Assembly (NCBI GenBank): GCA_905221605.1
Contig: CAJNDS010002124.1
Span: forward strand, 844,921 to 908,920
DNA length: 64,000 bases
From: Symbiodinium natans
Lineage: Eukaryota; Sar; Dinophyceae; Suessiales; Symbiodiniaceae
Reading direction: 5' to 3'
Of this stretch, positions 36,093-64,000 are shown piece after piece. Each line of letters starts with the position of its first letter. The stretch's first letter is position 1. The notes under the pieces were generated by a model. That model was not told where the DNA came from, searched no databases, and worked only from the letters and a program-made list of their open reading frames with translations. A program made the position numbers and the translations under genes.

Positions 36093-37970
36093 ATTAGGGT
36101 TTTGGGTTTAGGGCAACACCGTTTGTTGTTTACAAAGGGACATGCGGAGGTGGCGTCCCGCGGGGGACAGTGACGATCTCAGTTTCAATAGGAGCCTAGA
36201 CATGGGTTCACGCTGTATCGAGCAGGAGTCGCTTCAGCAACCCTGTGAACCCTAAACCCTGAAAGGGTTTAGGGTTTAGGGCTAGGGTTTCGGGTTTCGG
36301 GGACACCCTAGACCCAATAAAACCCATCAATTTGTGACATCTCCGCATAAATCAAGCTTGGCTCAGGGCCTCCTTGGGGGGCCGCTGGCAGTCAGTCTGC
36401 TTAACTTTCGTACATTCCATCCATACCCCGCTCCTGGCAACTCGTGGCCGGGGCGATGTGATCCTCGGCCTTGATGTTTAGGGTTTAGGGTTTAGGGTTT
36501 AGGGTTTAGGGTTTAGGGTTTAGTTTAGGGTTTAGGGCTTCGGGCTTCGGTTTTTGGGCTTAGGACATCTCCACTTTGGGCCTCAACGAGCTCTCTACAT
36601 GCATCCATGCAGCCTCCAGACGTGGTAAAAAAGGTTGCATCAGGACCCCCCAAACCGAACCCTAAACCCTAAACCCTAAGCGCTAACCCCCTAAACCCTG
36701 AACCCTTAACCCCAAATTGTAAGAAGCAGGCAACAGCCTGCACAGCTCTTTGTGTATTTGTCCCAACCCGGAACCCTGAACCCTGAAACCGCACCTTGCG
36801 AATCACCCCAAACCCTAAAACCCTGAACCCTAACCCCTCTCGACCCCGAAGCCCCGAACCACCAAAAGTCGAAAACCCTATACACCTGAACCTCAGACCC
36901 TCAACCCCAACAATTTGTGCTGCAGCGTCACGCCTCCACCACCGAAGCCATCTACTTTCTAACCCAAACCCTTAACCAGGAACTTTAAACCCGAAGCCCT
37001 GACCTCAGGAAAGCCGAGTGCAGTGTGCTTCAAGCTAGACAGACTTAAGGGGTAGACTTAAGGGGTCCTTAGTATAGAAATCAAGATCCCTGTGAGCCCG
37101 AACTCCTGAAAACCTTACGCCCTAAACCCCTAAACCTGCTCTACGCCCTCAACCTCAAACCCCGAACTCCAAAACCCCAACCCTAAACCCTCGACCCGTG
37201 GAACTGCGCATCTCAGACACGCCCAAGGCAATGGCGGACGCTGTGTTCAACGCTTGCCGGGCTCCCGAGGATAGTTTAGGGCTTCGGGTTTAGGGTTCAG
37301 GGTTTAGCTAAACCCTAAACCCCAAACCCTAATCCCTAAATCCTAAACCCTAAACCCAAAACCCTATAGGGTTTAGGGTGAGAAGCCGAGGCTGGGGTCT
37401 GATAGGGATCCGGGATTGGGGCTTGTAGGGTTTGTCATTAGGGTGCGGGTTTACTTCGGGCTTATAAGCATGTGCTGCGTAGGGTTTATACGGTTTGGGG
37501 TTTAGTGTTTAAGGGTTGGTTGGGGTCTGAGGTTTACAAGATTTTCTTATGGTTTGGGTCCGGGTTAAATTCGGGCTTCTAGGATTTAATTCGGGTTTCT
37601 AGGGTTTGGGATTTGGGATGTATAGGGTTTGATTACTGGGTAGGCATTTCGGACATTTTGTTTTTTTTTTGCTTTTTTCTTTGTTCTGGGCAAGGGTTTA
37701 TGTACAGGGTTATTTGCCTGTGAGTTTTCAGTGCTTTGGGTTCAAGGCGCTTCCCAAAAGCAAGTGTGAGACCAGTGCCAGGTCTCCCATTTGCTCTTGG
37801 GAAGTGACAGGCTCAGGGTTGGGGGTCAGGAGCAACCCATGAAATCCCGATCCCAAACCTTCAGGGTCATGCCCTCAGCCCTGTTTCATGCGCATCATCC
37901 TGGACGACTTCGACGCCATGGAGGCCCGGCGCAACAGGGTCATCAGTTTTGAGCAGCCTGCATTTGGAGG

Positions 37971-38666
37971 GACCGACCTGGTCCTGGGTGACCGATCTGG
38001 TCACCCGTGACCGATCTGGTCATTCCTAATAATAAGTGGTGGTGGGGCGGGGTGTGGGTGGTTGGCGGGCCTGGGGGGGGGGGGGGCGGAAGGTGGGTGG
38101 CATGGGCGTGGGGGGGGAGGGGGAACATTCACTTAATTACCTGGATGTGAGGGTCAGGAGAAATGGTGGAATTATATTAGAATCTGTTGCGGGCTGGGGT
38201 GGTGCGTGACCGATCTGGTCATTGCAAGGTGACCGATCTGGTCTCCCGTGTGTGGGGGGGGGCGGGGGGGGGGGGGGGGGCAAAAAAAAAATGAATTGAA
38301 AGGGTCCCATTAAATTGAATTTCTTGTTTACAAACCTTAAGTCATTCTGAACTTAGCAAGTTGTTAAAATCACGTGGAAGGATGGTAGGTGACTGACGCG
38401 TTTCTTGTGTGGGAGGTCCATTAATTAATAAATACCAATCATATATACTCGTCTACTAAGACTTATGACAAATCAAACTAGAACTAGACTGGCATAACAG
38501 CAGGGTGCATTAACTGTGGAGGTGACCGATCTGGTCGCTTCTTGGCGTGGGCGAAATTATTTGAGTTAATTTCTGAAATCACAAATGTTAAAGTGTTAGT
38601 GGTCAAATGATGGAATGTTGGCAAGTGTAAAAGTGATGGGTGGGGATGACAGTGACCGATCTGGTC
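37971..38666. repeat. Cluster of GACCGATCTGGTC motifs
   Basis: A 13-bp quasi-palindrome centred on GATC. Copies lie at 37,971 (one mismatch), 37,990, 38,009, 38,208, 38,231, 38,524 and 38,654. The first three are spaced exactly 19 bp apart. Most are preceded by GT and followed by A or T. The same 13-mer occurs four more times at 45,326-45,991 and nowhere else I noticed. It could be a protein-binding or recombination site; that is inference. Confidence 0.85.
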
Positions 38667-38799
38667 ATTTCCTTTGCGGTGGCGGGCAGGGTTAGGGGCG
38701 GGTCCTTTGGAGGATGAAAATTAAACGACTGATGAGTAAGAAAGTCAGCAGGCTCAGATGATTGGTAGCTTTTTATACACTCTTGACTGGTGGAAATAT

Positions 38800-39140
38800 G
38801 GATAATGTCATTATTTTGTTACTATAAGTATAAAATACTTATTATTGATTCTATTGTTATGATTATTCCAAATTAATGATCTATTCTTGGTATTATTCTT
38901 GTTATCAGTATAAAATTAAATTATTGTTATCATTATTATTCTTATAATAATTATCGTTTACTAGTTTTTCTGATTCTGTTTATTATCACCGTTGTTATCA
39001 TCATTATTCTTAAGATTGTTATGATTATGATTGTTGATATTATTCCTATTTTTCATTTAATTTAAAATTTAGTATTGCTACCATGAATATTAATAACTAT
39101 TATTGTTATGATGATGATGATGATTATTATTGTTCAAGTT
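38800..39140. repeat. AT-rich ATT/GTT tract
   Basis: About 340 bp of degenerate TATTATTATTGTTATGATTATT-like sequence, far more AT-rich than its surroundings. A smaller similar tract lies at about 2,905-2,985. No gene. Confidence 0.85.
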
Positions 39141-39195
39141 AGTAAGAGTTAAATGCGTGCAGTGCCGGGGTCATTGTTAGATAGTGCAGTAACGG

Positions 39196-40309: not shown

Positions 40310-40389
40310 ATGTTTATATTTTCAGAAATAAGGCGTTCCGTGCAGGGTTGTTGTTTGGTCTGTGTTGATGAAGCCACAAGGCGTCGCTT

Positions 40390-42093: not shown

Positions 42094-44471
42094 ATGTCCG
42101 GAAACTGGCAGGGTCAGCAGTGGGATGGTCAGGATGGGTGGCAGAACTGGGATGGATGGTCGTGGTGGCAGCCAAGGGGTGCTCCGACTCAGTGGACGCA
42201 GGGTCAGCAGCAAGGTGACGGCCAGGGTCACTGGGGTGTTCAGGCCAGGGCGAACGCGCTTCATGATGGCCGCCAACTCCGCCGGAGCCAGACTCAGCGA
42301 CAAGATGCTGCCCAGCACACCCATCAGGGTCAGCAGCACCAACCTGATGCCCAGCCCAAGCAGACCCCTCGAGGAAAACCGCACCCAAAGAGAAAGGATG
42401 CAGCAGTGGATAAGACAGTCATCATTGACACGTCTGCGCCTGCGCCAGGGCCAGGCACCCCTCTTCAGGGCATTCCGGCGCATATGATGGATTCTGGGCA
42501 GGGTCAAGGAGGTGCATCTGCGAGCGGCCATCAGCCTGGAGATGGCGCTCAGCAGTCTGGTCCAGTCCAGGGTGGAGGTGGCACTCACCAGCCTGGTCCC
42601 GTCCAGGGTGGAGATGGCGCTCCGCAGCCTGGTCCAGCCCAGGGTCAAGCTGGCGCCCCGCAGCCTGGTCCAGCAGGCCATCAGAGTGGAGACGGCGCTC
42701 CTGGTCTTCAGGGTCAAGATGGTGCGCAGCAGACTGGTGGCGCCCAGCAGCCTGGTCGAGGCCACCAGGGTCCAGATGGAGACGGCGGAGACGGTGCTCA
42801 GCAGCACTCTCAGGGTCAGTTTTGGCAAACTAGACCACCCTGGCCACGGACCACGCCAGTGACACAGTTTGCTGACCGAAGCCGCGCTCAAAGTGTGCCT
42901 GCGTGGCGTTACAACACCAGGGTCCCACGGCAGTACGACGGCGAATTGTCCAGGCCTCCACGGCAACTTGGTGATGAGGAGTTACGCACGGTTGGGTTTG
43001 TGTTCTGTCTGAGTCTAAGCCTAACAGACTACATGTTAAGTGCCTCCTCCTCAGGCAGGGTCAGACGCGCCCGCAGAACTGGCAGCCATCAGAACTGCTG
43101 CAGTATCTGCCACCGAACTTCCAGCGCGTCGCAGAGGAGCATTTCGACAGAGGGGGTCAGCAGGTTTCAAGGCTTTGTTAGTCTGCTTTGACTTGACAAG
43201 AAAAATATAAGAACAAAAAAAACCCTAAACCCTGAAGCCTGTTTTAAACGTAAAGAACCATCCTGGATCCCCAAGGTTCTCTACTTGCTTTTCAGGGTCA
43301 ACCGCAACTTCGCGGGCGACGTCTGTAAGCACCTGCGGGACCGCCCCACGGACGAGCTCCCGAAGAACCCCTCTGGCTGGGTCATCAACGCCGCTGCAAA
43401 TGTTATGGGTGGTATGCGCCAAAGCTTTGATGACGGTGATCCAGGGTCAGCCTTGAGGGCGGTGGCGGCCCTGGATGTCCACATCGTCAACGAGGCCACC
43501 AGGGTCATGACGCTTGTCTCAATTAATTCCAGTAGTATTTGTTCAATGTAATTTGTCTAACAGTTAACAAGCTAACTTCGCCCCCTCCCCCCCCCCACAC
43601 ACGCCCGCCGCCCAGGACTGAGATCCTCACGGATGTGGGCCTCGATGTCGACCTGTACATCCACCAGCTGCGCTGCCTCTATTGTTTCAGCGCTGAGGGT
43701 CATTTGCGGGCCTCGATCATTTTGACACTGGGTCACAAAATTGCAATTTTTCAATTTTGTTACTTAACTGTTAGCTGTGCTGTTATTATAATGTCACTGT
43801 TGTTAGTTGGGTCTGTGGGTTTGCCAAGGACCACTGCAATCCAGGCTCGCTATCGGTCGCCGCAGCCCCTGGACATGTGGTTTTCCAGCCGCGTGGCGCA
43901 CGAGCAGACTGCAGTTGAGAATCGCTCCGTGTGACAGGGTCACAGTCAGCGTATACTGAGACTGGGTACTTCAAGTAATGTGATAGCTTGGTCAGCATAT
44001 ATAGTCTCTGTGCCCCTAGTTACTCACACTGCAGCAACTGCACAGTGCAAGGGTCATATTTTGCGTTCACTGCCGCCCAATTTTGCATTGAACGCCGCTG
44101 GCGATGTTAATTCGCTGCTGTGAGGTCAGGGTCAGCCGCAACATGAAGTTCTGATTAAGTTGCAGTCAGATGATGTTAATACTAAGCTGGCCTGTTACTT
44201 GGATGTGTGCTTCCTGGCTCCACAGCGCTGCTGCTTCTTCCCAGGAAAAAAGGGTGTGCTGTATTGACAGTGTAGATTCCTTTCTGCAGTCCATTGGGAT
44301 CACGCATCAATTTCAGTTGCACGCAGGTGCCTTCAGAACAGCGCGGTGGAGGGTCGCACGGCCCTTTATGCCCAGGCGGGGCCTGTTGTCTCTAGTTCGG
44401 AGTGCAGTAGTGAGTCAGGGTCACAGTTCATCTTTGCGAGCACTTCTGTTGCCTGTGCGGCTTTGGTTTAA
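42094..44471 (+). CDS. Trp/Gln/Gly-rich protein with unknown C-terminal domains, multi-exon
   Basis: Start chosen at MSGNWQGQQWDGQDGWQNWD. The first 300 residues are low complexity: Trp/Gln/Asp-Gly at first, then a Gly-Ala-Pro-Gln-Gln repeat (PGPVQGG-type). Introns that restore frame: 42,991-43,058 (GT-AG), 43,160-43,295 (GC-AG) and 43,512-43,615 (GC-AG). They reveal ordered segments such as QNWQPSELLQYLPPNFQRVA, FAGDVCKHLRDRPTDELPKN and ILTDVGLDVDLYIHQLRCLY. Further probable exons lie near 43,827-43,935 and 44,129-44,276 (KLACYLDVCFLAPQRCCFFP), and the last reads GRTALYAQAGPVVSSSECSS to a stop at 44,469-44,471. Downstream splice sites are unresolved. No family recognised; the two-part layout (disordered N-terminus, folded C-terminus) recurs in neighbours. 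Confidence 0.55.
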
Positions 44472-44984: not shown

Positions 44985-45120
44985 GTGGGTGTGTGTGGGG
45001 GTGCGGGGGTGTGGGGTGTGGGGTGTGGGGGTGTGGGGGTGTGGGGGTGTGTGTGGGGGTGTGGGGTGTGTGGGGTGTGGGGGTGTGGGCGTGGGGGGGG
45101 TTTGGGGGGTCTAGGGGGGT
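44985..45120 (+). repeat. G-rich GTGTGGGG minisatellite
   Basis: Irregular GTGTGGGGGTGTGGGG units with G runs of four to eight on the + strand. It could adopt G-quadruplex structure. Gly/Val/Trp/Cys frames across it are artefacts. Confidence 0.9.
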
Positions 45121-45536
45121 GGGGAGGTTGGCGTTGGGGGATGGGTGGGATGGGGGTGGGAAGGTAAATTTAAAGGGGAGTTACATGGCAGGCCAACCCG
45201 GACCCCGGCACCGGGTCCCGGCGCCGGGACCCGGTGCCGGGGTCCAAGCCTTCTTACTATTGAAAAGTACTTAAAACCTCTTCCAAATTGAAAAGGGTCA
45301 CTGGACTGAGAATTAAGACTAGCTGGACCGATCTGGTCTGTGCCGTTTTTAAATTCTAGCAAATTATAAAGGAAAAGGGTCACTGTACCGAGCGGGCCCA
45401 ACAAGTAAGACTAGCTGGACCGATCTGGTCTGTGCCGTTTGGGTTTTGCTGGGTCCCACATTGACAGGGGAGGCGGGGGCAGAATTCATACAAGCATTGT
45501 TTTTGTCTTGGATGTAGCTAGCCCCTAAAACTTGGG
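45084..45536. repeat. Segmental duplication, copy 1
   Basis: About 453 bp duplicated at 45,637-46,095. In order it holds a G-rich stretch, a 46-base perfect palindrome (45,200-45,245), a GGGTCA word, GACCGATCTGGTC (45,326), another GGGTCA, GACCGATCTGGTC (45,418), and a tail TAGCTAGCCCCTAAAACTTG. No gene. It may be a non-autonomous mobile element or a tandem duplication. Confidence 0.85.
45200..45245. repeat. 46-base perfect palindrome
   Basis: Starts GGACCCCGGCACCGGGTCCC, centres on GGCGCC and ends with the exact inverse complement. Very GC-rich and able to extrude a stable cruciform. Copy 2 (45,749-45,807) has gained a 13-base internal repeat. Confidence 0.95.
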
Positions 45537-45636
45537 GATGATTCATCGCTGAGAGTTTGTTGTCAGTTTCGAAAGGGCTTGTTCAATGAATTGTCAATTG
45601 TGGCAATGACAAGTCCATTCCTCCTTGACGACAAGG

Positions 45637-46095
45637 GTGGGCGTGGGGGGTTTGGGGGTCTGGGGGGGTGGGGAGGTTGGCGTTGGGGGATGGGTGGGAT
45701 GGGGGTGGGAAGGTAAATTTAAAGGGGAGTTACAAGGCAGGTCAACCTGGACCCCGGCACCGGGTCCCGGCGCCGGGTCCCGGCGCCGGGACCCGGTGCC
45801 GGGGTCCAAGCCTTCTTACTATTGAAAAGTACTTAAAACCTCTTCTAAATTGAAAAGGGTCACTGGACTGAGAATGAAGACTAGCTGGACCGATCTGGTC
45901 TGTGCCGTTTTTAAATTCTAGCAAATTATAAATGAAAAGGTCATTGTACCGAGCGGGCCCAACAAGTAAGACTAGCTGGACCGATCTGGTCTGTGCCGTT
46001 TGGGTTTTGCTGGGTTGCACATTGACAGGGGAGGCGGGGGCAGAATTCATACAATCATTGTTTTTGTCTTGGATGTAGCTAGCCCCTAAAACTTG
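45637..46095. repeat. Segmental duplication, copy 2
   Basis: Copy of 45,084-45,536, a few percent diverged by eye. It retains the two GACCGATCTGGTC words (45,888 and 45,979) and the palindrome, here 59 bases long because GGGTCCCGGCGCC is repeated. It ends exactly where the first exon of the next gene seems to begin, so it may supply that gene's 5' region. Confidence 0.85.
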
Positions 46096-47579
46096 TGCGG
46101 ATTGCTTGGCCCAGGCAGGGTCACGTCTTCTTCAAATTTTGGCCTTGGGCTCAGTCAGACTTTCAAGACACGATGCGGATCCGCCCTTGCTCATTGCCAA
46201 AGCTGTTCACACGCGTCAAGCTGCAGCAACGCTGTTCAGTTAGCTTTCCAATTGCCCCCGCACTCACTGGGCCATGTCTTCCAGGACTCTTCTTATTTGT
46301 TTGGGGCATAATAAGGTTCACGCTACCTTGGCCTAGGGAGGTCTCTGCTGCGTGTTGCCCAATCCTTGTCACAGGACTGGGCACTTGGCGTTGGATCAGA
46401 AGCGCTTCGACGCGATCAAGATGCGCCTTGAAAAGGGTCGATGCAAATGCCCGGCAGAATTCTATGACTCAGCTGAGGAGGCTAGAACACAGATATAAGA
46501 GGGTCACATGTGATTCGCATCACTCCTGCAGATTCCTGCAAATTCTGCCTTGTCTTTTTGACAGGCCGTGTGGCATTATCAGCGTTCCGTTGCAAGCAGC
46601 AGGGAGCTGAACATGAGAATCACCGAGACGGGGTCACCGCATGACGTGTCTGCGCAGAACTCCAAGTTGCAGAGGACATACCTTGACAACATGAGTCACT
46701 CACATTACTATGTTGTCAGGGTCGCGTTCAACGACATTCAGGTGGCTTTTGAGCAAAAGCTCTTGACCAAGCTCAAAGAGGGAGGCTTCACCACTAGTGA
46801 CCAGTTTCTGCTGGGCTCCAACACCAAGGACTTCACCATTGATGTTCAGATCTACACGCTTAGGGTCACGAAACCTGCCCTTCCCCTTGAGAGGGTCAAG
46901 AAGATGTTCACTTTCTACCACATCATGGACCCAATCGTTTCCAAGGTGAAGGACATTGTGTTGCGTCACATGACAGGGTCACCGCCTCCGCCAAATCACA
47001 ATTTGTTTTTTGTGGATCCCGACTCTTGTGCAAGGTTGTGCTGGCTCAGCCGCAAGTCCCACCGGGGTCAACCCATCTTCATGCAGGCCATTGGGATGGA
47101 TATCCCGCCTTGGGACATGCTGCACGCGGACAAGAGGGTCAGCCCTGTGCTTGTAACTTGGCGGTGAACGCGTGCTTAATTAAATGACTTGAGTGTGTGT
47201 GAGAATGTGGCTGACCACACACATTTGTAACTTGTTCTCACGCTTGACAGTCAAGGAGTTTTGGGCGGTGCCGTTTGACAAGATGACGGACACAACTGAG
47301 CTTGAACCGTTTCAAGCCACGGTCACCTTGGACCTCCTGGCAGAGAAGACATGGGCCCAGCTGGAGGCAGATGTTACAGACAGCTGGCGTGAGCGCCACG
47401 AGGCATATCTCCAAGGTCAAATAAGTTCTCTCGAAGGCGCTTTGAGCTCTTTCAAAGAGGAGCTGGACACCCTCCAAAGGGCCAGAGACAGCGGCGCATC
47501 ATCAGAGGCCCTGCGGCCTGTGGATCTTCCAAGTTCTGCCAAAAGGGCCAAGACCACGAAGGCCCTGCCACACTTGTGA
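46095..47579 (+). CDS. Unrecognised multi-exon protein with C-terminal coiled coil and KR cluster
   Basis: Four exons keep frame: about 46,095-46,225, 46,375-46,471, 46,565-47,141 and 47,251-47,579, separated by GC-AG introns. Protein-like segments include VFFKFWPWAQSDFQDTMRIR, KRFDAIKMRLEKGRCKCPAE, and in the long exon FTTSDQFLLGSNTKDFTIDV then LPLERVKKMFTFYHIMDPIV. The C-terminus has a Glu/Leu helix (SSLEGALSSFKEELDTLQRA) and ends PSSAKRAKTTKALPHL, a nuclear-localisation-like tag. No domain family recognised. The true start is unclear because the 5' end abuts the duplicated segment. GGGTCA words lie in exons and introns (for example 46,718, 46,862, 46,976, 47,136). Confidence 0.6.
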
Positions 47580-51838: not shown

Positions 51839-52473
51839 ATGTCACAGGGTCAGACCGAGCCTCAAGAATGAAATTTGGACCAGGTTGGCAAGCGGCCAAG
51901 CCTCAGAAGCATGTGTGCAAGCCTAAGACTTCCATCAAGTCCATTTGAAATTTGGTGTTCTGAGGGGTTCGGCTGCGGAGCCAAGCTTAATTTCAATGGC
52001 TCTGCCAAGGTCACCTTCTTTTCCAGATTCAGTATAGCATGACACTCATGGCGTGTCTTTCTGTTGAGAGGCGGTGTAGCCAAGATGGCAATAAAACATT
52101 CTTTCATCTTAAACTGGATCCTCTGGCAGCTGCCTTGGCATTGTGTGTCCGTTTTCTTGGGGTCATCTTGCTGGCTCCTGGCACATCAGTTCGAGCCATT
52201 GCTTTGGAGTCGCAGCCTCCACCAAGAAAAGAGCTTCCGCTTCCATGATAAGGGGCTGCTGTTGGGAGCGTTGTTTTGCGCATTAATGATGTGGTTCCTT
52301 GCTGCTTTTTCTGTGTCTCATAGCTAGATCAGATGGAATTGGGAGCGCTTGTTTTTTTTTTCACACTCCAGCCTCGCCAAGGTCAACCACTGCCGAGCCA
52401 CACTGCCTGGCGAGAAACAGAGGCAAAGAATCAGTGTTGTTGCTTTAACCAGTCTTGCGAGCCCTGAAAGTGT
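51839..52473 (+). other. Intergenic region upstream of TIR element
   Basis: Unique sequence with one clear GGGTCA word (about 51,848). Frames near 52,039-52,327 are Leu/Cys-rich without a domain. No gene called. Confidence 0.4.
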
Positions 52474-52834
52474 ACACAGTGGGCCCTTTGGAGATAGGTG
52501 AGATAGTTGAGATAGGGAGTTGGTTTTAAGTGAGTTACAAGTCACTTAGGGAGGGTCTAAGTCGTTTCTATCTTTATCTTGAGATACCATCTTCATGGAA
52601 TGATAGGGAAAGATAAACGAGATAGAACAGACTTAGAAAAGATAGGTGCGGCAAAGTGCGGCAAAGCGGCACCGGTCGCCGGGAGATAAAAAAAGATAAA
52701 AAAAGATAAAAAAATAAAAAAAGATAAAAAAAGATAGTTTGAGTCGATTTTGGGATAAAATGGTCATATTGCATGTTTAGTTTAGGGCATCAAAGAATGT
52801 ACGGTGTGTACAGCTAACATGAAGCAAACCCGGA

Positions 52835-53395
52835 AAGATCCCTTGCTTAGGCCCACCCTTCTGCCCCAGAAGCAAGTCCGGAAAGAGCCCTTGCTCAGGC
52901 CCGCCCCCCGGCCCCAGAAGCAAGTCCGGCAAGATCCCTTGCTTAGGCTCCCCCTCTTCGCCCAGAAGCAAGTCTGGAAAGATCCCTTGCTTAGGACCGC
53001 CTTCGGCGCCAGAAGCAAGTCCGGCAAGATCCCTTGCTTAGGCCCCCCCTCCGGGCCCAGAAGCAAGTCCGGAAAGTAGATCCGTTGCTTCGGCCCCCTC
53101 CGGCCCCAAAAGCAAGCCCGGAAAGATCCCTTGCTTAGGCTCGTCCTTCGGCCCCAGAAGCAAGTCCGGAAAGATCCCTTGCTTATGGGCCCCCACTCCG
53201 GCCCCAGAAGCAAGTCCGGCAAGATCCCTTGCTTGGGCCCAGAAGCAAGTCCGGAAAGATCCCTTGCTTAGGCCCCCCTTCCGCGCCAGAAGCAAGTCCG
53301 GCAAGACCCCTTGCTCAGCTCCCCTTCCCGCCCCACAAGCCAATCCGGAAAGGTCCCTTGCTGAGGCTCCCCCAGTCAGGCCCCAGGCAGGCACT
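52835..53395. repeat. Satellite of about 50 bp with AAGCAAG/CTTGCTT arms
   Basis: About eleven units, each with AGAAGCAAGTCCGG, (A/C)AAGATCCCTTGCTTAGG and a GC-rich GGCCCCCCTCCGGCCCC spacer. Within a unit AAGCAAG can pair with CTTGCTT. Pro/Lys/Ser or Cys/Phe/Gly frames in both directions are repeat artefacts. Confidence 0.95.
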
Positions 53396-53799
53396 ACCGC
53401 ACACTGCCGGCCACTACCGCCCTGGAGCCCGTAAGCTTCGCAGAGGGCCTCAAGCACTACCACCCTTAAGCCCTGCAGCCCAAGCCCAGGCACTACTGCA
53501 CACTACCGCACACTACCGCCCTGAGATGTCCCACAAATAGTGCAGGTAGCGGGCTGGCCTCCCTCACACTACGGGCTCCGTAGCCTCAAAAATGCATGTC
53601 GTAGCCTGCAGCTCAAGCCGAAGCCATCTTTGCTTGCCCGCGCCTCACGGACTTCCACCGTCTTTGCTCTCAGCATGGCCACAGCCAGCGCCCACTTCGA
53701 GGACAGCTTGCGGCAAGTCTTTCCTCCACTCACAGGCCCTCCCTCAACCCGCCCCCCCCCCCCACCCTTATCGAACAAACCCATATAATGGCGGGCGAC

Positions 53800-53975
53800 A
53801 GTTGTTGGGATCAGGGTATGTTTCGCGGGTATGTTTTGGGGTATCGGGGTATGTTTCGGGGGTATGCTTCGGGTATGTCTCGTGGCATCATGAGCTACTT
53901 TACCTTCAATTTCGGGCGTATGTTACGGGGCATGTATCGGGGGTATGTTTCGGGGCATGTTTGGCGGGTGTGCAA
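53800..53975 (+). repeat. GGGTATGTTTCGG minisatellite
   Basis: Irregular units of GGGTATGTTTCGG(G) with insertions, inside the TIR element. Frames across it read Met-Phe-Arg-Gly-Tyr repeats and are artefacts. Just upstream (53,395-53,530) is a CACTACCGC-rich tract. Confidence 0.85.
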
Positions 53976-54341
53976 CCCGTGTGCCCTGCTTAAACCTGGG
54001 CCCCCAAAAAACTCACAAAGCCACATAGGGCTTCCTGTCTCCCTTCTCCTGTGCCAGCAGCCCAAACGTGAAACGAGTAGAGGCCTTTCCAGCTGGACGT
54101 GGGTGATTTTTCTACAAAGAATCTACATCTGAGCTAGTGTGGAATTCTCGCCATTTTGCTTCAAAAACAGATAGCAAAAAATAAAAGAAAATAAACAAAG
54201 ATAGAAAAAAACAAAAAAAGATATAAAACCTTAAAATGGACTTAGCCTATCTCCGTTTTATCTTTTTTTATCTCCCCTATCTCTTTCTTTCTCAACTATC
54301 TCAAAGGGCCCACTGTGTAATCAACATGTGAATCCACATAT

Positions 54342-54500
54342 CCAAACGACCCCCAGGCTAACGTTAGCCTGGGGTCGTTTGGTAAGGTGAATTCATGTGA
54401 ACATTACACTTCCATTTGCTCCCACCTCTTGAGTGTAATGGGGCGGTGAATCCACCTTACCAAACGACCCCAGGCTAACGTTAGCCTGGGGGTCGTTTGG
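54342..54500. mobile_element. Palindrome-ended MITE-like element
   Basis: Two copies of a roughly 41-base palindrome (CCAAACGACCCC-AGGCTAACGTTAGCCT-GGGGTCGTTTGG) lie at 54,342-54,382 and 54,460-54,500. They flank about 77 bases with GTGAA(T/C) words and a GAGTGTAATG segment that is inverse to CATTACACT. The copies differ only in one C/G run length on opposite arms. It lies 23 bp from the TIR element's right end. Non-coding. Confidence 0.8.
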
Positions 54501-54811
54501 GAACGTCGTCGTGTTTCAAACTCGGGAATTGAGGCGGCCAGCTTTGGGCAACCTTGCGGGGGCTGCGGCAAGGGTCCAAACCCCAGCCTCAGCCGTTGAA
54601 GTGCCTTTTGAGTGGTGCTTGGCTGGACCTCTGCCAGTTTGCCTGAGGGTCAACCTCGGCCTTCCCAGCTCTTCTCCAGGGTCCAACGCTGCAGAAGGCC
54701 TGCCTGCTCCTGTTACTGTTATCACAGCGCACTTGCATTTTGGCGAAGGTTTGCTTTACATGCCTGTGTCGCAGCCATGATTGATGAAGCAGCAGACGCT
54801 GTGTGGCAGCA
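54501..54811 (+). other. Upstream region of the methyltransferase gene
   Basis: A frame at 54,511-54,780 is Ala/Pro/Leu-rich without a domain and stops before the methyltransferase exon. It could be an upstream exon, but no in-frame junction is obvious. A stop is present in the methyltransferase frame shortly upstream, so a start inside the next exon is favoured. Confidence 0.3.
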
Positions 54812-56373
54812 ATGGATGTTCACATGAGAGATGCGCTGCTGCAAGAGAGGGCCAGGTGGCTGCAGAAGGCTGGTCTTCTGGCTGATAGGGTCACAGCTGT
54901 GAAGCAGACCGTTGGAACGGACTGCAGCGGCTTGGACTGCTGCATATTTGGTCTGCGCAAGATGCAGATACATCACCAGCACTTGCTTCTTGAGCAAAAA
55001 TGCATTTGTTTCCTCTTGTCTTCTTTAAATTATAAGTTCTAAGCTGACAGCAGACTTCCACAAGGGTCAACTCTCATTGCTTGTCAGTCCACCAAGCCTG
55101 TCAGTGAAGGTTCGCTTGTGACATCAGTGCTGCGTCAAGAGAATGGATCAGGGCCAACACAAAGCCAAACACCGTCTACGAAGACATGTACACTGTGGGG
55201 GACAGGGCCAAGCCAACTGGATACGTAGTCGGGTTTCCATGCCAGCCATTTTCAAGGCAAAATTCCAGCAGAAAAAAGGGCTGGAAGCATGCAGCCTCAA
55301 GGCTGGTGGACAGGGTCATAGATGAAACCCTGAAGCTGAACCCCTTGTGGGCAGTGTATGAGAATGTGATCAACATTGGCAAATATTTCCCCACTCTGTT
55401 CCGCAAGTTCAGGGGCCGTGGCCTTCTTGAGAAGTATAGGGTCATCATCCTTCCAGTGTGCCCAGCACGGACATTCAGGTTACCAATGCGCCGGCCAAGG
55501 TACTATTTCCTGCTTGTCCGCAAGGACAGGGCCATTGCTCAGGGTCAGCTGGTGGATTTGGTGCTGAGCATGATGGCTTGTCTCAGGGACAGTGTTGGAA
55601 AGGTTCCAGCAAAGCCATTTCCACTGACGATTGAGGGTGAGAAACCGGAGTCCAAACGGAAGCGCCCCTCGTCAAGCAACCTCTCCCAGAAGTGGCGGAA
55701 GCTTCATGCGCAAATCCGTGAGAAGCACCACATGTCTGCGCCAGAAGGGTCAGCCTACTCTGAGCTGGCCCTCACAGAACGGGAGCAGGATGTGCTGGAC
55801 ATTGCCTTGCAGCTCAGATCACAGTCAACTGAGACAGTTGTGGTGGATGTATCACAGAGTGCCACCCGTATCCCTCTTGGGGTCAATATGTTGCCCACCT
55901 TCACAACGTCAAGCAAATTGGTGGCTGTGTCCAAGGGTCACGCGCAGCTTCTATCTGGAAAGGACAAGCTGTGCTGTCTTGGCATACCAGTTCAGCAGTG
56001 CACCGTCAGCCAGGGTCACAATGCCCTGCACGACTTAGCCGGCAACGCCATGCATGTGGATTGTGTGGCGCTGGCTATGCTGCTAGCTATGTCCTGTGTG
56101 GCTTGTGAGGGTCCTCCGCCGCAGCTTCCTGGCAAGAGTTATCAGGGCCAGGCGCAGCCCCAGGTTATCACCTGGAAGAAGCTGGCAAAGCATGGCACTG
56201 GAAAGACCGGTTCCAGGGCCAAGCAGAACCGCAAACCCAAGAAGGTGAAGTCCACAGCGTCCGTCATATGCAGGGCCAAGACCAAGAAGCCGAAGAAGTC
56301 ACAGCCGCAAACCGCCGCCTTGACGCAGGGGAGTGGAAAGACCTCGCGGCTTAGAGACCTGTTTCAACAGTAA
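54812..56373 (+). CDS. DNA (cytosine-5) methyltransferase, two exons
   Basis: Transfers a methyl group from S-adenosylmethionine to C5 of cytosine in DNA. Exon 1 (54,812-54,984) carries motif I, GTDCSGLDCCIFGLRKM (residues 35-51). A GC-AG intron (54,985-55,109) joins to FACDISAASREWI. Exon 2 has motif IV GFPCQPFS with catalytic Cys at about residue 102, motif VI YENV (Glu about 142), motif VIII MRRPRYYFLLVRKD (about 184-197) and motif X AGNAMHVDCVALAM (about 368). The residue order and spacing are those of the family. Length is about 478 residues, catalytic domain plus a Lys-rich tail (KKPKKSQ), with no N-terminal chromatin domain seen. Dinoflagellates are reported to carry retrotransposon-linked DNMTs, but I see no reverse transcriptase nearby. 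The catalytic motifs look intact. Confidence 0.9.
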
Positions 56374-56694
56374 TTCAGTGATCTCTTTGTCGTGAACACC
56401 TGCCAGGGTGGACTTAGGGAAGGGTCGCACATACGCAATGGAAAACAAAGCTTTGTGCCTGTCTGTTGCAACTGGGTGTTTGTGTGACTGGGTCAAGGCA
56501 CTAGCGCGTGTTCTTGCTGCCAGGTGCTCGTCTGGTGGCAGGCAACCCATCATGTCTTGACGCTTTTCAGCTGTGCTGTTCACTGCCTGCTGTGTCTTGT
56601 CAATGGTTTTGGACATGATGTACTGTTACGGTTGTTCTGCCGCAGCTTTGCTTTGAAACAGTCAAGAGTCAGACCTCAGACATCGGTGCTGCTC
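56374..56694 (+). other. Intergenic spacer
   Basis: Separates the methyltransferase stop from the next proposed start. It contains GGGTCA at about 56,491 and a CTGTGCTGTTC/CTGCCGCAG pyrimidine-rich tract that could hold a splice acceptor before 56,660. No gene called. Confidence 0.4.
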
Positions 56695-59600
56695 ATGGAA
56701 GACGTGGAGGAGTCACCATCTGCCCCCCCCGCAAAGAGGGCCAGAGTGAAGACCCCGCCTGAGGCTGTCCCAGTGCCAGTGCCGCCGCTTGGCCCGCACA
56801 AGCCTGGGTCATCAGTTTTGTCAGGGGAGGGCTCCTGGCAGCCACCCCCTTCTGACACGGACTCCATCCTTCCCATCTTGCGCAAGATGATCCCGCAGAC
56901 CCGCGCAGCTGCGCTGGAATGGATGAAAGATCACATGCCCACTGAGGCAGGGTCAGCCACCCGCATCGAGGACATACCGCCGCTCAAGGTGGCAGCACCG
57001 TCTGGCCACGTAACGTCTGGTATCAAGGAGATCATGAATGCAAGGAACATGGAGCTGGCGCTGAAAACGCAAAAGGTTTATGAGGCAGGGTCAAGCATTT
57101 GGATCTTGTCTGCCCAGCCCACGGATGAGTTTGATGAGAGCTGGAAAACCTATGTCGATGTGGGCAACAGCGTGCCTTTGTTGATGTTATGAAGAAGTTA
57201 ATAAGCACACCTGAGCTGCTTTGAACTTGGCATGTTGTCAGTTTGTCTTCATTGCTGAAGCCTGAAACCAGCCAAGGTCTTCAGGCCCAACAAGCACACG
57301 GGTCACATCTTGCTTGAACTGGCTTTCGCAGCAAATGTGGGCGACGTGATCCCAAAGGACCTGCCGCATCATGTCAACTTAGTTTCAGGGCAGAAGGCGT
57401 TCTTTGCCTTTTATGTTGCGCTGGCCAATGCGCTCCGGATCAACGACAACGACAGGGTGAAGGAGTTGATGATCTTCTCTCTCAGCACCACAGTGAGGTT
57501 GTTTTTGGGCATGGACTCCTCAACAATGCTCCTGGAGATCAACGGGGTCAATAACCACATGAAATCCCTGGGCAACCTCTGTGAGGACTCGTGGCTGACA
57601 TGGTCACTGAGGGCGCAGGACTTCGCAGTGCTACACAATGTGAGGTTGTCAGGGTCGGATAAATGTGCTTCGAGCTTGAACAAGTTGGGCCTGAACTACC
57701 TGGGTCAGCCCCTGAACAAGAACCATGCGCACACACTTGGGCTTCAGAGCCAGATGCTGTGCGACGAAGCCATTGAGGTTCTCAGGGCCATGGACAGACT
57801 GTACAACAGCCGCCCATTGACAAAGGATTACACAAAGCTTCTGAGGTTGCTCAAAGCTGTCCAGGGTCAGGCCACAGTGGCTGGAAAGACTACTTTCGTC
57901 GCAACTGATGCAGTGACGTATGTCATCAGCTTCATCTTTGTGGAGCTCTTGAGAGGATCAATTGATGCAAACTTTTTGACGGTCGCAGCGCTGGACCCAC
58001 TTTCCAAGCCTGGGTTTGTGTCCTTGCTGCTGACAAGGCAGCGGGTGCTTCAGTATTTGAACAGTTTGGTGTCGGTCATGGAGGATTCAAAGGCCAAGAC
58101 GGAGATGCAGACGGTCATGACTGACATTTTCTTGGAGCCGGAGAGGTGGAACAACACTTTTCCCAGCGAGCATGCAACAGAGACGCATGAGGAAACGGAG
58201 GCAGGGCCAATAGGAACAGCGTCAGGAGGGTCGACGGAGCAGAGCAACACACAGGGCTCCGCCTTGGATGGTTTTCTTGCAAAGCTGCAGCATGCCAGCA
58301 GCAAGAAGTTGGCCCAGCTGGCGCACGGGGTCAATTCAGGTGACTATGACAAGGGCTTGGTGCTTGTCGCCTCGGATTCAAAGCTTGAGGAAGTCCTGAA
58401 TGACGGTGAAAGGGTCAAAAAGGAGCCCCAGCTGCAGAGCCTGAACACACATCTGCGAGCCTTCGAAGCGTTGTTGGAGACAGCTCGCGCTGTTTCGTGC
58501 TCAGGCCAAATTTCAATCACAGGTTTTGTCGTTCATCAAGTTGTATTTATACAGAACAGTGTTCATCCTGCGTTGGCCTTTAACATTCCAAGTGAGGTCA
58601 ACGTGCACCGAAGCCAGGGTCCCAACCATGAGCCTCAGGGCGTTGGCGCGGTCAATTAGTGACCCTGATCTGCCACAGCTGCAGGCTGAGGAGCGCAAGG
58701 ATGTCTGGCGGCGGGCGCAGGCCACCAGAAAGAAGTACGCCAATGTTGTGGTTGCCAATTCTCTGGAGGAGATCACGGCTGCAGTTGTGAGGTTCAAAGA
58801 GATGACCAAACCCAGGGTCAAACTGAATGAGGCTCATGAGATTGTTGTGCTGAGCTTGGACTGTGTGGAGGAGGCAGTGATGAAACCTTGGCAGAGAACA
58901 TCGCAGCTGGCTGGGCTGAGCGAGAAGACCATGCAACTGGGTTAGCGTTCAGAGCAGACCTTTGTGAAACCCGCTTCTTTTAGTCATGTTTTTGAATATG
59001 CATTTACACTTACACAGGAAGGGTCTCAACGGGTGCCTCCAGTACCTGGGACAGCTTGCAAAAAGCTTTGAGATTGGGGTCATTTTTGATGGCTGCAGCA
59101 AAGACAAGCGCCGCTCACTGGACAGCCTGACTGCCATCAGTGCCAAGGACATGAGTGAGGGGATCCTTGTCTTCGCGCCCAAGGAGAAGAACAAGACGAA
59201 GGACCAAGGTTCAGAGGTGAGAACCAGAACAGTTGCTTTCCAGGATCAGCACCACGAGACCTTCCACATGCGCTTCGGGTGTGGCAACCGCTCCAAAATC
59301 TCCAAGGGTCAGGAGGGTGACTTCCAGACCTGCTACACAGACGTGTCCAAGGTGACATGTCTTCCGAGGGTGTCGCAGGCGTCCAAGAAGGATGCGCTTG
59401 GCCTGGGTCAGGATGCCACCATGGCGCCAGCGTCATTCTCTGAAGACCAGGCTGTGCCGTGGTTCTGGGGAGAAACCAAGGGTCAGGGATTTTGGGAGAA
59501 GTTCCTGAAGAGCTACAAGGCGTCGGTGGTGATTGACCTCAGGGTCACGACTCAACTGGGCCTAGCGGCCATGTCAATGGGTCTCCCATACTTAGGAAGC

Positions 59601-59997
59601 TTGAAGGCAATTTAACTTATTGAAATGTTCTTCAAATTGCAGTTGTTGCGCTTGTACAGTTTGTGGCAAGCCTTGCTGATGTTTTCCTGAGGACTGGCGT
59701 CTGGGTCAAAGCAGGCAACCTGGATGTCGAACATTTTGGACCTAGGGTCATTGGAGCACATTGTCAAGAACCAGCATGCCATGTTCACCCAAGAACTTGC
59801 CACGGCAATCAAAGACCTGTATGCAGACGAGCTTGAGACACTAGCCTGGACAGCCGTCATCAATTTTATTTATGTTAATGATAATAGACCTAGACTGTTC
59901 TCAGGTTGAAAAGGGTGCTGTCCTGCAACTGGAAGCAAGGACGTCAGTCAATCAAGACCTGCCACCTGTTGACTCGGACGATGAGGCAGCCGACTAG
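56695..59997 (+). CDS. Long unrecognised multi-exon protein with acidic tail
   Basis: Starts MEDVEESPSAPPAKRARVKT, a disordered head with a KRARVK nuclear-localisation-like cluster and Pro-rich stretch. A GC-AG intron (57,170-57,271) joins into a long helical exon (KHTGHILLELAFAANVGDVI, KAFFAFYVALANALRINDND, MKSLGNLCEDSWLTWSLRAQ) to about 58,420-58,500. Then SDPDLPQLQAEERKDVWRRA to 58,905, a GC-AG intron (58,906-59,017), and NGCLQYLGQLAKSFEIGVIF onward to 59,606. After another intron (59,607-59,714) comes TWMSNILDLGSLEHIVKNQH then FTQELATAIKDLYADELETL, and after 59,853-59,904 an acidic end VDSDDEAAD*. The part from VVIDLRVTTQLGLAAMSMGL to DLYADELETL reminds me of a C-terminal module of many dinoflagellate hypothetical proteins; that is memory, unverified. 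One junction near 58,430-58,600 is unresolved. Confidence 0.6.
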
Positions 59998-61385: not shown

Positions 61386-61519
61386 TTTCATTCCTGGGAC
61401 ATGAGACCTTGAAATAGAGCAGCCGTCTCGACCCTTGGCTCCTTAAGTTCAAACAACAAGAGCTCCGTTCTAGGTCTAGAGTTAAAAAGTCACAAGTGGC
61501 GGTGCTCCGTTTCACGCGC

Positions 61520-63397
61520 GTGTCAAAGGCACGTCTGGGGTCAATGCGTGCAGTGTGGGGCACTCGACGCATGTCGTTGAAACATCGCTGCGCAAGCTGC
61601 TCACCGACTACAGTGACTGTGGTAGTTGTGTATTCCCATCGCTGCTGCCAGGTTCGAAACGCGGAGGAATCGAGCAGGCACAGGTCTCAGATGTTGAGCG
61701 CAGTGTTTGGTGTCTACTTTGTCAGTATCATTTTCCGTGTCTTGTTCCAACCGACTTTTAAGCAATATCTATCCTTCCAGCAGGCAGGTTGTTCAATCAT
61801 TGAGTCCGTTTCTGTGAGGCTGTGAGGCCATCCGGACGAGGGTCACCGAGACAACTGCGAAGAGGCCTGCCAAACTTCAGAGCAGTGACAGCTTGAGGGT
61901 GTCTGCGTGGTGCAAGTTGAACTTTGGCGTTCGACAGGTTCAGGTCCGCGTGCTCCAAGTGATCCGAGGACTCCCGATCCATGTCGGATCGGGGGTAGTC
62001 GGATCACTTGGAGCCTCGCTGCGCTGAACCTCCTTCCCTCTCACAGTTGGCCAAGGCGCATCGTCTTTCATATTTCAGATTATAGTCTTTTCTGGGATGG
62101 CGTGTTCTCCGTACAAGGTCAAAACCCGGGGCAGAGCCCGGGCCAGTCAGCCGAGGGCCGTTCCAGGAAGCATTATGCCCAGGCACAGCTCGGAGATGTT
62201 GAGTGCAGTGATTGAAGCATTACAATTTAGTGATAATAGTAGGGTCATATTTTCTATCTTACTTCAGATTCAACAGACGTTGAGACAGGATACCTACCTT
62301 CCAGCACGCAGTGTTTTCAATCATCGAGTTCGGTTTCTGGCGAGGCCATCCAGACGAGGGTCACGGACACAACTTCAAAGAGGCCTGCCAAACTTCAGAG
62401 CAGTGACGGCTTGAGGGTGTCTGCGTGGTGCAATTTAAGCTTTCAAATTGGCATTTGACAGGTTCAGGTCCTCGTGCTCCAAGTGATCCGAGGACTCCCG
62501 ATCCATGTCGGATCGGGGGTAGTCGGATCACTTGGAGCCTCGCTGCGCTGAACCTCCTTCCCCTCGCAGTTGGCCAAGGCACATCGTTTTTGAGTCTAGT
62601 CTGGGATAAGTGTGATCCCCGTGCAAGGTCAAAATCCGGGGCAAAACCGGGGCCAGCCCAGGAACCGGCCAGTGCCTGAGTGACCCTGTGACTTCCGATC
62701 CATGTGGCTCCGACGTCATGGGGTCACTTGGGCAGTGGCCGGTTCCTTGGACCAGACGTATGCCCAGGCGCAGCTCGGAGATGTTGAGCGTACTGTGTGA
62801 ATCAAGCAAACTTTTTTTTTCTGACCAGTGTTCATTCTTGTTTCAATCAACAGACGTTGAAAAAATGCCTATCTTCAATCCTTCCAGCACGCAGGGTTTT
62901 CAATCATCGAGTTCCGTTATTGGCGAGGCCATCCAGACGAGGGTCACTGACACAACGGCAAAGAGGCCTGCCAAACTTCAGAGCAGTGACAGCTTGAGGA
63001 TGTCTGCGTGGTGCAAGTTGAACTTTGGCGTTCGACAGGTTCAGGTCCGCATGCTCCAAGTGATCCGAGGACTCCCGATCCATGTCGGATCGGGGGTAGT
63101 CGGATCACTTGGAGCCTCGCTGCGCTGAAACTCCTTCCCTCTCACAGTTGGCCAAGGCACATCGTCTTTCAGATTCTAAGTCTAGTCTAGTTGGAATAGT
63201 GTGATCCCCGTGCAAGGTCAAAATCCGGGGCAAAACCCGGGCCAGTCAGCCCAGGAACCAGCCAGTGCCTGAGCGAGCCAGTGACTTCAGGCTCTGATGT
63301 CACTGGGTCGCTCGGGCACTGGCCGCCGGTTCCTTGGAATTGTTCGTCCAGAAGGGTGACCAGGCGTAGCTCTGAGATGTGGAGTGCAGTGTTTGAT

Positions 63398-63444
<47 letters not shown>

Positions 63445-63660
63445 CAGTTTCAGTCCTGTTCCCAACAGCTAATCCCAAAAGCCCATCCTGCCAGCTGGCA
63501 GCTTCGATTGTTGAATTTGTTTGCGCGAGGCCATCCAGAAAGGGTCATCATTGTCGCAACTGGAGCAGGCTCGCCAAGGGTCAGTGTTTGCGATGGGCCA
63601 TTGTCAGAGTGAGGAGCGCCTTTCAACATGTGACAGGTTCAAGTCCTCAGAAATCAAGAT
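61520..63660 (+). CDS. Gene or remnant with tandemly duplicated exon
   Basis: A probable first exon near 61,535-61,645 reads NACSVGHSTHVVETSLRKLL. It is followed by three clear copies and one degenerate copy of an exon: copy 1 at about 61,829-61,938, copy 2 at 62,345-62,458, copy 3 at 62,850-63,040 and a partial copy from about 63,525. Copy 3 is the most complete: SSSVIGEAIQTRVTDTTAKR then PAKLQSSDSLRMSAWCKLNF. Copy 1 is closely similar. Copy 2 carries changes and loses frame near its end. The conserved TAKRPAKL is another KR cluster. Whether the copies are joined, alternative or dead is unknown. No family recognised. Confidence 0.4.
61952..62014. repeat. 63-base hairpin, copy 1
   Basis: Inverted repeat GCTCCAAGTGATCCGA...TCGGATCACTTGGAGC enclosing an inner CCCGATCC...GGATCGGGG stem. 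Identical hairpins lie at 62,476-62,538 and 63,053-63,115. All three directly follow an exon copy, in probable intron sequence. They are more conserved than their flanks. Confidence 0.95.
62476..62538. repeat. 63-base hairpin, copy 2
   Basis: Same sequence as the hairpin at 61,952 with no difference that I could see, although the exon copy beside it has diverged. Confidence 0.95.
62658..62750. repeat. Second hairpin type, copy 1
   Basis: Imperfect inverted repeat: CCAGGAACCGGCCAGTGCC with GAGTGACCC on the left against GGGTCACTTGGGCAGTGG and CCGGTTCCTTGG on the right. The left arm holds one of the rare reverse-strand TGACCC words and the right arm a GGGTCA. Confidence 0.85.
63053..63115. repeat. 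63-base hairpin, copy 3
   Basis: Third copy, again beside an exon copy, conserved with both stems. Confidence 0.95.
63251..63337. repeat. Second hairpin type, copy 2
   Basis: CCAGGAACCAGCCAGTGCCT with GAGCGAGCCAGTGAC on the left against GTCACTGGGTCGCTCGGGCA and CCGGTTCCTTGG on the right. Arm changes relative to copy 1 (GTGACCC/GGGTCAC versus GCGAGCC/GGGTCGC) mostly keep pairing. Confidence 0.85.
63398..63442 (+). repeat. GT microsatellite
   Basis: About 20 uninterrupted GT dinucleotides. Cys/Val or His/Thr frames through it are artefacts. Confidence 0.95.
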
Positions 63661-63817
63661 GATGTTGAGTTTTTGTGGGTATTTGAGAATTATCGTATCG
63701 TTATTATATCATCATACAGTTACAAGAAGAATCAGACCAGTCAGTCTAAGGCCTTAGGTACAAGGGCTTGGTGCTAATGTAAATGTCCTAATGAATCAAT
63801 TAAGTCACTAAAAAACC

Positions 63818-64000
63818 ATGTCTCTTCTGCGCACAAAGCGCTCATGGCTGCAAGCTCAGTTTGCTGAGGGTGATACTGCTGCTGACAGGAAGAGAAAGCC
63901 TAGTCAGCAAGGGTCACTGGCTTCAACTAAGCCTGCAAGAGGCAAGAAGCCTAAGCTGGCGAAAGTGGGGCAATCCAGGGCCAAGAGCAGGACAAACCCC
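63818..64000 (+). CDS. Start of a basic, Lys/Arg-rich protein, cut by window end
   Basis: ATG at 63,818 in AACCATGTC context opens MSLLRTKRSWLQAQFAEGDT, then ADRKRKPSQQGSLASTKPAR and a KKPKLAK-type basic stretch, without a stop to the end of the window (61 codons). It resembles the basic disordered heads of the upstream genes. GGGTCA is embedded in the codons for Gln-Gly-Ser at about 63,910. Function unknown. Confidence 0.55.
   Translation, partial: MSLLRTKRSWLQAQFAEGDTAADRKRKPSQQGSLASTKPARGKKPKLAKVGQSRAKSRTNP

Follow-up and report, generated by a model that had tools for sequence, protein, structure and literature searches.

A 31.2-kb block of the Symbiodinium natans nuclear genome is filled with the word AGGGTCA, which occurs roughly once per 200–300 bases along it and nearly always on one strand. 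The enrichment is block-specific and strand-pure, exceeds what codon usage provides and recurs at new positions in a diverged paralogue; neither the sampled loci of ordinary genes nor two more distant paralogues show it. Our preferred reading of these sequences, a tentative one, is that (C)AGGGTCA may be an address tag, under selection, free in position and read by strand, that marks one lineage of co-oriented blocks, with nascent RNA the likely substrate of its reader.

Extent and composition of the block

In the window, the whole 64,000-nucleotide stretch analysed here, GGGTCA occurs 105 times on the + strand and 3 times on the − strand between positions 37,821 and 64,000, which bears out the original prediction that the reverse complement TGACCC is rare there. 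The 27 copies predicted in 54,803–59,997 were recovered, with a single TGACCC, and the left part (1–37,820), said to hold about ten copies and to be near chance, has 10 on each strand. The span first proposed, 37,821–64,000, is right at its start (about 37,823), whereas its end is the edge of the window: the block runs on to about 69,011 and measures 31,194 bp, with GGGTCA at 129 versus 3. The boundary is sharp and GGGTCA ends at the block edges (Table 1). Telomere-like repeats were rejected as a source of the word, since their arrays stop near these edges and AGGGTTT counts 3 versus 7 in the block. Terminal repeats framing the block were likewise rejected, the edge pieces being degenerate telomere-like text with 11 to 713 matches in the same 264 kb. 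Rfam and tRNA scans of the window gave zero matches.

Table 1. Positions of the block and its parts within the window
Feature	Position	Strand	Remarks
Flank outside block	1..36673		Many scattered (TTTAGGG)n / (CCCTAAA)n arrays, without word bias
Word-bearing block, part within window	37823..64000	+	105 GGGTCA on +, 3 on −
Upstream ORF piece	47235..47465	+	Conserved at the start of paralogous block L148 as read
Longest GGGTCA-free stretch of window block	52166..54646		Contains ~96-bp tandem repeat (52821–53386)
Palindrome pair	54342..54500		Each around GGCTAACGTTAGCC, 117 bp apart; ~300 bp upstream of first DNMT piece
C-5 cytosine DNA methyltransferase gene (DNMT)	54803..56370	+	PF00145 on 55108–56370
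ORF A2	56836..57180	+	Kept in paralogous block; no assigned function
ORF B	57259..58500	+	Kept in paralogous block; no assigned function
ORF C, pieces 58589–58936 and 59010–59600	58589..59600	+	Kept in paralogous block; no assigned function

The word is more sharply defined as (C)AGGGTCA, and AGGGCCA is a second form within the window block. Three related words had been proposed. AGGGCCA shares the strand bias in the window block (25 versus 1) and not in the paralogous block (2 versus 1), AGGGTCG shares it weakly (7 versus 2), and TGGTCA, at 13 versus 9, drops out. The enrichment of AGGGCCA in just one of the two blocks was counted against the favoured reading. Spacing of GGGYCA is over-dispersed (CV 1.28 versus 0.98 for random placement), with fewer gaps below 20 bp than random (4 versus 13), which was likewise weighed against that reading. 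The 2.5 kb at 52,166–54,646, picked post hoc as the longest GGGTCA-free gap (Poisson P ~5e-5), is probably younger inserted DNA.

A block-specific mutational or gene-conversion process that writes the word without any reader is very unlikely. Such a process would fit the mild + strand enrichment of one-step neighbours (AAGGTCA 14 versus 1, TGGGTCA 16 versus 1, GGGGTCA 13 versus 0) and the small number of words multiplied through local duplication: local repeats hold a minority of words, and a few of the 105 are copies of this kind (45,295/45,857; 61,840/62,358/62,941). However, it would have to yield an exact 7-mer 96 times from different ancestral sequences, in nearly unrelated flanks, and we know of no mutation spectrum that does so. 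The word-free 2.5 kb inside the block further argues that local exposure alone is insufficient. Around the words, little is conserved beyond position −1. Insertion of introners, in the form outlined for Amoebophrya in PMC7789003, was rejected as the words lack repeated flanks.

Constraint within genes

A first-order Markov model trained on the word-rich right part itself gives a mean of 11.7 GGGTCA and a maximum of 20 over 100 runs, against the 105 observed, an excess of about nine-fold over this control and about 20-fold over the genome's own background. Synonymous-codon shuffling of seven chosen + strand ORFs (1000 runs) gives 6.9 ± 2.3 with a maximum of 15, where 32 are observed. Counts matching shuffled sequence had been named as a way to refute the original prediction, and the observed excess leaves it standing. 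Its claim that the word uses all three coding frames also holds: the 44 GGGYCA in these ORFs start at codon positions 1, 2 and 3 in 10, 21 and 13 cases. The further claim, that constraint acts on DNA or RNA and not on protein, is supported by this use of frames, by the codon-shuffle excess, by a GGGTCA at 55,064 within the inferred, homology-bounded DNMT intron and by the new positions in the paralogous block.

A Gln-Gly-Gln-rich ORF holds 8 GGGTCA (42,111–42,813), all in a single frame, as would be expected of protein-level repeats. Nevertheless, words in every frame, in the intron and between ORFs, together with the codon-shuffle excess, make protein repeats or codon bias almost certainly wrong as an explanation, and both were rejected as a general cause (32 versus 6.9). 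Word density in conserved coding sequence is 5.5 and 7.0 per kb, compared with 3.7 and 4.1 outside it. Residues beneath the words are less conserved than others (identity 30% over 129 residues versus 39% over 2470; permutation P 0.044), as expected if words settle at protein-tolerant places. A tripeptide trace of the word is visible in the proteins of both word-bearing loci (6/6 rows, 5 distinct proteins, z 2.9 to 4.8); an 881-aa protein of the wordless locus L149 also has a raised score (z 2.5), which speaks against a selected tag.

All recognized genes of the block run one way. Homology defines the DNMT gene in two pieces, 54803–54991 (the inferred first exon) and 55108–56370. Among seven block ORFs, DNMT alone passes the Pfam cut-off, and the three + frames of window 37,821–64,000 and of L121:1-6002, scanned at E ≤ 0.01, contain DNA_methylase only, with no helicase, Rep, transposase, recombinase or reverse transcriptase.

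Paralogous blocks and the rest of the genome

A different contig carries a syntenic paralogous block, L148, whose proteins are 31–43% identical to those of the window block and which has GGGTCA at 48 versus 1 in 8.5 kb, oriented as in the window block. In both, the word lies on the strand of the recognized ORFs. Between the 29 coding words of the window block and the 30 of the paralogue a single position is shared, about 0.2 being expected by chance. Across these two independent word-bearing sequences, the positions turn over but density and strand persist, so selection probably acts on the word itself. L148 also has a similar palindrome pair with the same spacing, ~150 bp upstream. Two more distant ORF B/DNMT paralogous loci, L149 and L150, lack the word and carry DNMT too; any reader would therefore not be general to these genes.

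Other sampled sequence, 298.8 kb from ten contigs, has GGGTCA at 60 versus 68 (0.20 and 0.23 per kb per strand). A genome-wide background equally rich in the word, which would have counted against the original prediction, was thus not found in this sample. HSP70 loci on four contigs (20.0 kb) hold 4 GGGTCA and 7 TGACCC, without sense-strand enrichment, and a rule covering every gene of the genome was rejected on that ground. Transcript tagging as a general rule, one of the roles first suggested, is not supported, as these loci and the two distant paralogues lack the word. Since the word fills one 31.2-kb block and the 298.8 kb elsewhere is unbiased, there is no genome-wide rule.

A paired-word scan of 759 Mb returned 183 matches, the reversed pattern giving 100; the matches listed (100) include three dense groups confined to one strand. 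By listed position the word also follows gene direction on two further contigs: C509 has 12/12 on the + strand with + strand genes, four of the twelve lying in one 48-bp repeat, and C1954 has 8/8 on the − strand with − strand genes. ORF B and DNMT match scores are equal or nearly equal for C509, C1954, C2133 and C2278, so the first two are not independent of the C2133 block; judged by match scores rather than DNA identity, the four copies look near-identical. The ORF at 57259–58656 (ORF B) matches ten other genome places. A three-word pattern (427 versus 437 matches) is uninformative, because a word-containing 21–22-bp satellite dominates the places listed.

The block could instead be of foreign origin, from the genome of a large virus or another eukaryote, for example, in which the word was genome-wide; the word would now be a fossil signature without a role. 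The sharp boundary, the presence of DNMT as the sole Pfam-passing ORF and the sole domain in + frames, and the few proteins matched by ORF B are consistent with such an origin; of two ORF B searches, each limited to scoring the 8000 candidates with most words in common, one found ORF B itself only and the other two proteins, including the C2133 protein, named as Symbiodinium natans. We nonetheless regard this descent as quite improbable: copies 31–43% identical hold similar density at different positions, unlike decay, paralogues at a greater distance within this genome are wordless, Symbiodinium supplies the best named DNMT relative, and the genes look intron-split. A viral parallel was rejected, since the 8 stretches of viral contigs inspected, from the 30 densest of at least 120, gave clustered local repeats. 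In the nearest case inspected (L022), AGGGTCA counts 29 versus 0 in 14 kb, mainly in three clusters and alongside many other skewed words.

Possible readers and comparison with known systems

We infer selection as the force that keeps the word, and a trans-acting factor as its reader. Block-level addressing in a dinoflagellate nucleus, advanced here with reserve, would consist of an oriented heptamer running through exons, introns and spacers and rewritten at new positions as the proteins diverge, by which one factor recognizes the transcripts or DNA of the lineage to the exclusion of other genes. This lineage would comprise co-oriented multigene blocks of the S. natans nucleus (DNMT, A2, B, C and further orphan ORFs). 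Because the word has to be told apart from its complement and is present in exons, an inferred intron and inter-ORF sequence of a one-way block, the simplest reader would be an RNA-binding protein. This putative protein would recognize AGGGUCA on a nascent transcript that spans the entire block, with many weak sites adding up along it, and might lead block transcripts to be retained, protected, eliminated or processed in a regulated way. Transcript direction and block direction are inseparable here, as the recognized genes all point one way. Predicted local folding, a weak proxy, counts against an RNA tag: the word appears slightly more paired than GGG-containing permutations, with mean unpaired probabilities of 0.355 versus 0.395 in the block (P 0.07) and 0.322 versus 0.424 in L148 (P 0.015).

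The main rival to RNA reading is a VANC-like, DNA-binding reader: a block factor that binds the word on double-stranded DNA (CAGGGTCA) and sets the methylation or chromatin of its own copies. VANC21 motifs of Arabidopsis VANDAL transposons are described in PMC5735166 as dense, single in orientation and family-specific, with C/T variants among subfamilies; the AGGGTCA/AGGGCCA pattern here comes close to this. Likewise, the short word here is dense, oriented and confined to one lineage (129 versus 3; 48 versus 1), as are VANC21 and VANC6 targets; moreover, DNMT is conserved in both word-bearing blocks, and the near-equal scores on the four contigs indicate several copies of block relatives. However, the account in PMC5735166 has VANC motifs bound as double-stranded DNA, mainly in non-coding sequence and spreading by tandem repeats, whereas the block words occupy all frames of coding exons, mostly outside tandem repeats, at a density in coding sequence at least as high as outside it. 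Their flanks are nearly unrelated, a double-stranded DNA reader by itself needs no single orientation, the wordless L149 and L150 likewise have DNMT, and mobility of the block is at most a candidate property, with no transposase detected in the + frames scanned. We therefore consider such a reader unlikely, if deserving of attention. SymbioLINE-Dnmt and SymbioDIRS-Dnmt3, retrotransposons that multiply DNMT genes in Symbiodinium, carry intronless DNMTs alongside reverse transcriptase according to PMC5890265; the block DNMT, in contrast, appears intron-split, and the + frames scanned contain no reverse transcriptase.

The RNA-tag reading finds its closest likeness in fission yeast, where Mmi1 reads DSR hexanucleotides in transcripts, as reported in PMC3352096. 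As there, the word lies on the predicted sense strand, here that of the ORFs; single-stranded accessibility is not indicated by the modelled folds, the word itself differs, and both the RNA role and the reader are putative in the block. DSR words are position-free, occur in selected transcripts and are read single-stranded as RNA, and their copy number matters. To our knowledge, DSR is not known to cover exons, introns and intergenic sequence alike over 31 kb. The bacterial words Chi and KOPS are oriented, coding and non-coding, free in position, genome-wide in known cases and tied to replication direction. A similar word, giving polarity to a DNA machine that translocates or acts on one strand in recombination, replication or rolling-circle copying, would suit the near-perfect orientation over 31 kb, at free positions in coding and non-coding sequence alike. 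It is improbable here, since the word is confined within the edges of one eukaryotic block lineage as far as sampled, the sampled background shows no polarity and the + frames scanned hold no domain of such a machine.

Literature searches found no description of this word. Dispersed address words are known from bacterial DNA machines, from some yeast transcripts and from a plant transposon system, there mainly in non-coding DNA. If true, a word spread across coding exons in every frame, through a 31-kb eukaryotic nuclear block and, at new positions, its paralogue, would give a strong, testable example of protein-coding sequence shaped by a trans-acting reader.

Strand bias and extent of the word

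By direct count, the right part of the window (37,821–64,000) holds 105 copies of GGGTCA on the + strand and 3 on the − strand, and this word is both the most frequent 6-mer there and the one with the highest strand skew among all 6-mers. The original prediction of about 27 + copies in 54,803–59,997 with a rare reverse complement, and of a near-chance level in the left part, agrees with the counts (27 vs 1, and 10 vs 10 in 1–37,820). The consensus is A-GGG-T-C-A with a preferred preceding C (45 of 96 AGGGTCA sites in the word-rich block), and AGGGCCA, already proposed as a related word, is a real second form in this block (32 vs 1 over its whole length).

First-order Markov resampling of the right part (100 runs) yields a mean of 11.7 GGGTCA and a maximum of 20, against the 105 observed. 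Seven + strand ORFs picked from an ORF list contain 32 GGGTCA and no TGACCC, compared with 6.9 ± 2.3 (maximum 15) and 1.0 under synonymous-codon shuffling (1,000 runs), an excess over codon usage. In the same ORFs, the first base of the 44 GGGYCA words (T or C form) falls on codon position 1 in 10 cases, on position 2 in 21 and on position 3 in 13, so that all three frames are used, as predicted. That the word is constrained at the level of DNA or RNA, as had been claimed from the outset, is well supported in this analysis.

With 100 kb added on each side of the window (C1812:844,921–908,920 in an assembly of 759,417,921 bp and 2,543 contigs), the 31,194-bp block contains 129 vs 3 GGGTCA, or 4.14 per kb on its + strand. 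The sampled sequence outside it, 298.8 kb on ten contigs (C1812 flanks, C100, C500, C2000, four HSP70 contigs, C164 and C48), is not word-rich, with 60 vs 68 copies (0.20 and 0.23 per kb). Since the four HSP70 loci (20.0 kb; gene on − in one, on + in three) carry 4 vs 7, the word as a general mark of transcription is rejected.

Scattered TTTAGGG-type arrays occur in the left flank up to C1812:881,593 and again from 914,235 on the right; two-unit arrays are absent from the seven 4-kb bins wholly within the block. The left part has 51 copies of AGGGCCA in reverse orientation, and 38 of them fall in the 4-kb bin with a 55-bp satellite.

With gene limits set by homology to a paralogous block (L148, on contig C2133) and by ORFs, conserved CDS carries 5.5 GGGTCA per kb within the window's share of the block, against 3.7 per kb for the remaining sequence there; the corresponding L148 values are 7.0 and 4.1. 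One copy (55,064) lies inside the homology-bounded intron of the C-5 cytosine DNA methyltransferase (DNMT) gene. Local duplication accounts for a few of the words (45,295/45,857; 61,840/62,358/62,941). The 2.5-kb stretch 52,166–54,646, which includes a tandem repeat, has no GGGTCA (Poisson P ~5e-5 for a stretch picked post hoc), as would fit younger DNA with words still to be acquired.

Coordinates of the block and of repeats in the window and in its paralogue L148
Feature	Window	L148 or other	Remarks
Word-rich block	37,823–69,011	C1812:882,743–913,931	
Palindrome pair	54342–54500	L148 2375–2505	~40 bp each, around GGCTAACGTTAGCC, 117 bp apart; common to both blocks
Local duplications	45085–46095; 61765–63396		~370–660 bp, 79–94% identity; several hold the word
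55-bp satellite	21304–23972		unit includes TGGCCCT, CAGGGCCA on the − strand
Short (TTTAGGG)n/(CCCTAAA)n arrays	1–36673	L122–L140	very numerous, both orientations, >90 kb either side of block
Inferred DNMT intron		L148 2944–3136	AGGGTTT, telomere-like: 11 on +, 0 on −

Paralogous blocks and turnover of positions

ORF B (57,259–58,656), one of three ORFs (A2, B and C) that follow DNMT, has ten additional genome matches: four of near-equal score at 38% (C509, C1954, C2133, C2278) and distant ones at 23–25% (C164, C48, C1790, C2260, C1744, C868). A DNMT search returns 30 match rows, the window's own ranking first, followed by the same four contigs (41%), by C1447, C1767, C1933 and C2080 (32%) and by others; the best named relative is from Symbiodinium sp. 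CCMP2592. Such sets of three or four equal or near-equal scores on different contigs, which also include C48/C1790/C2260, may reflect recent duplication, mobility or assembly duplicates.

Three of these loci were read. L148, which belongs to the 38% group of four and was read over 8,457 bp as far as the end of its contig, has the same gene order and strand as the block (upstream ORF, DNMT, A2, B, C), with 31–43% protein identity in the main matches, and carries 39 vs 0 AGGGTCA and 48 vs 1 GGGTCA. The palindrome region, which precedes the first DNMT piece by ~300 bp in the window block and by ~150 bp in L148, is their only blastn alignment at E 1e-3. The distant loci on C164 and C48 (8,000 bp each) also have DNMT close to B/C, in a different gene order, and show no GGGTCA enrichment (1 vs 2 and 0 vs 1).

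Aligned coding pieces contain 29 GGGYCA words in the window and 30 in L148, of which one shares a codon column (~0.2 expected by chance). Identity is 30% for residues under AGGGYCA and 39% elsewhere (permutation P 0.044), and gaps are also more frequent under the words (13% vs 7%), suggesting that words may be lost and regained at sites where the protein tolerates them, with orientation constant and density similar. Word-spelled tripeptides are over-represented in proteins of both word-bearing loci (z 2.9 to 4.8; six rows, five distinct proteins, P0007 being the L148 DNMT). Of 11 other proteins, 10 lack the excess (z −1.8 to −0.1) and one, from the C164 locus, shows it (z 2.5).

Paired words across the genome

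Two CAGGGTCA spaced 17–47 bases have 183 genome matches, and the reversed pattern 100; placements rest on the first 100 places listed, ending at C1954. Among the matches listed, all 12 on C509 are on +, as are ORF B and DNMT there (four lie within one 48-bp repeat), and all eight on C1954 are on −, as are its genes. The six listed at C1225:413,879–416,001 are all on −, with neither a DNMT nor an ORF B hit listed there; this is possibly a third word-bearing block. Other one-strand groups among the matches listed are compact (C659, C779, C1873, C1920) or looser, kilobases apart (three on C1832, two each on C1713 and C1930). The pattern is insensitive, with only one place listed within the window block itself, so that little can be read from its listing no match at C1447, C1767 and C1933, three of the 32% DNMT loci. 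Taking C509, C1954, C2133 and C2278 as one lineage, two independent word-bearing sequences have been read, together with one group known by position alone. A 21–22-bp satellite, AGGGTCATTTCTTCGTGGCTA, present on many contigs (C36, C57, C77, C275, C283), includes the word heptamer and makes up most listed matches of a three-word pattern.

Candidate readers of the word

The single orientation of the word in a block whose recognised genes all point one way points first to a putative reader acting on RNA; counting against this, the word is not left unpaired in local RNA folds. A polarity word of a DNA machine, and a fossil signature of foreign origin carried by the word, are less likely. No description of AGGGTCA in dinoflagellates or of GGGTCA in Symbiodinium was found in the accessible open-licence literature, which does not prove absence, and the main text of an S. 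natans-inclusive genome comparison (PMC8045281) does not use 'motif' or 'telomer'. By analogy, a DNA-binding reader of the kind of VANC, the anti-silencing proteins of Arabidopsis VANDAL transposons, would also fit. VANC target motifs lie chiefly in non-coding, tandem DNA (PMC5735166), which speaks against such a reader, whereas the lineage specificity of the word and its one-letter variant agree with it.
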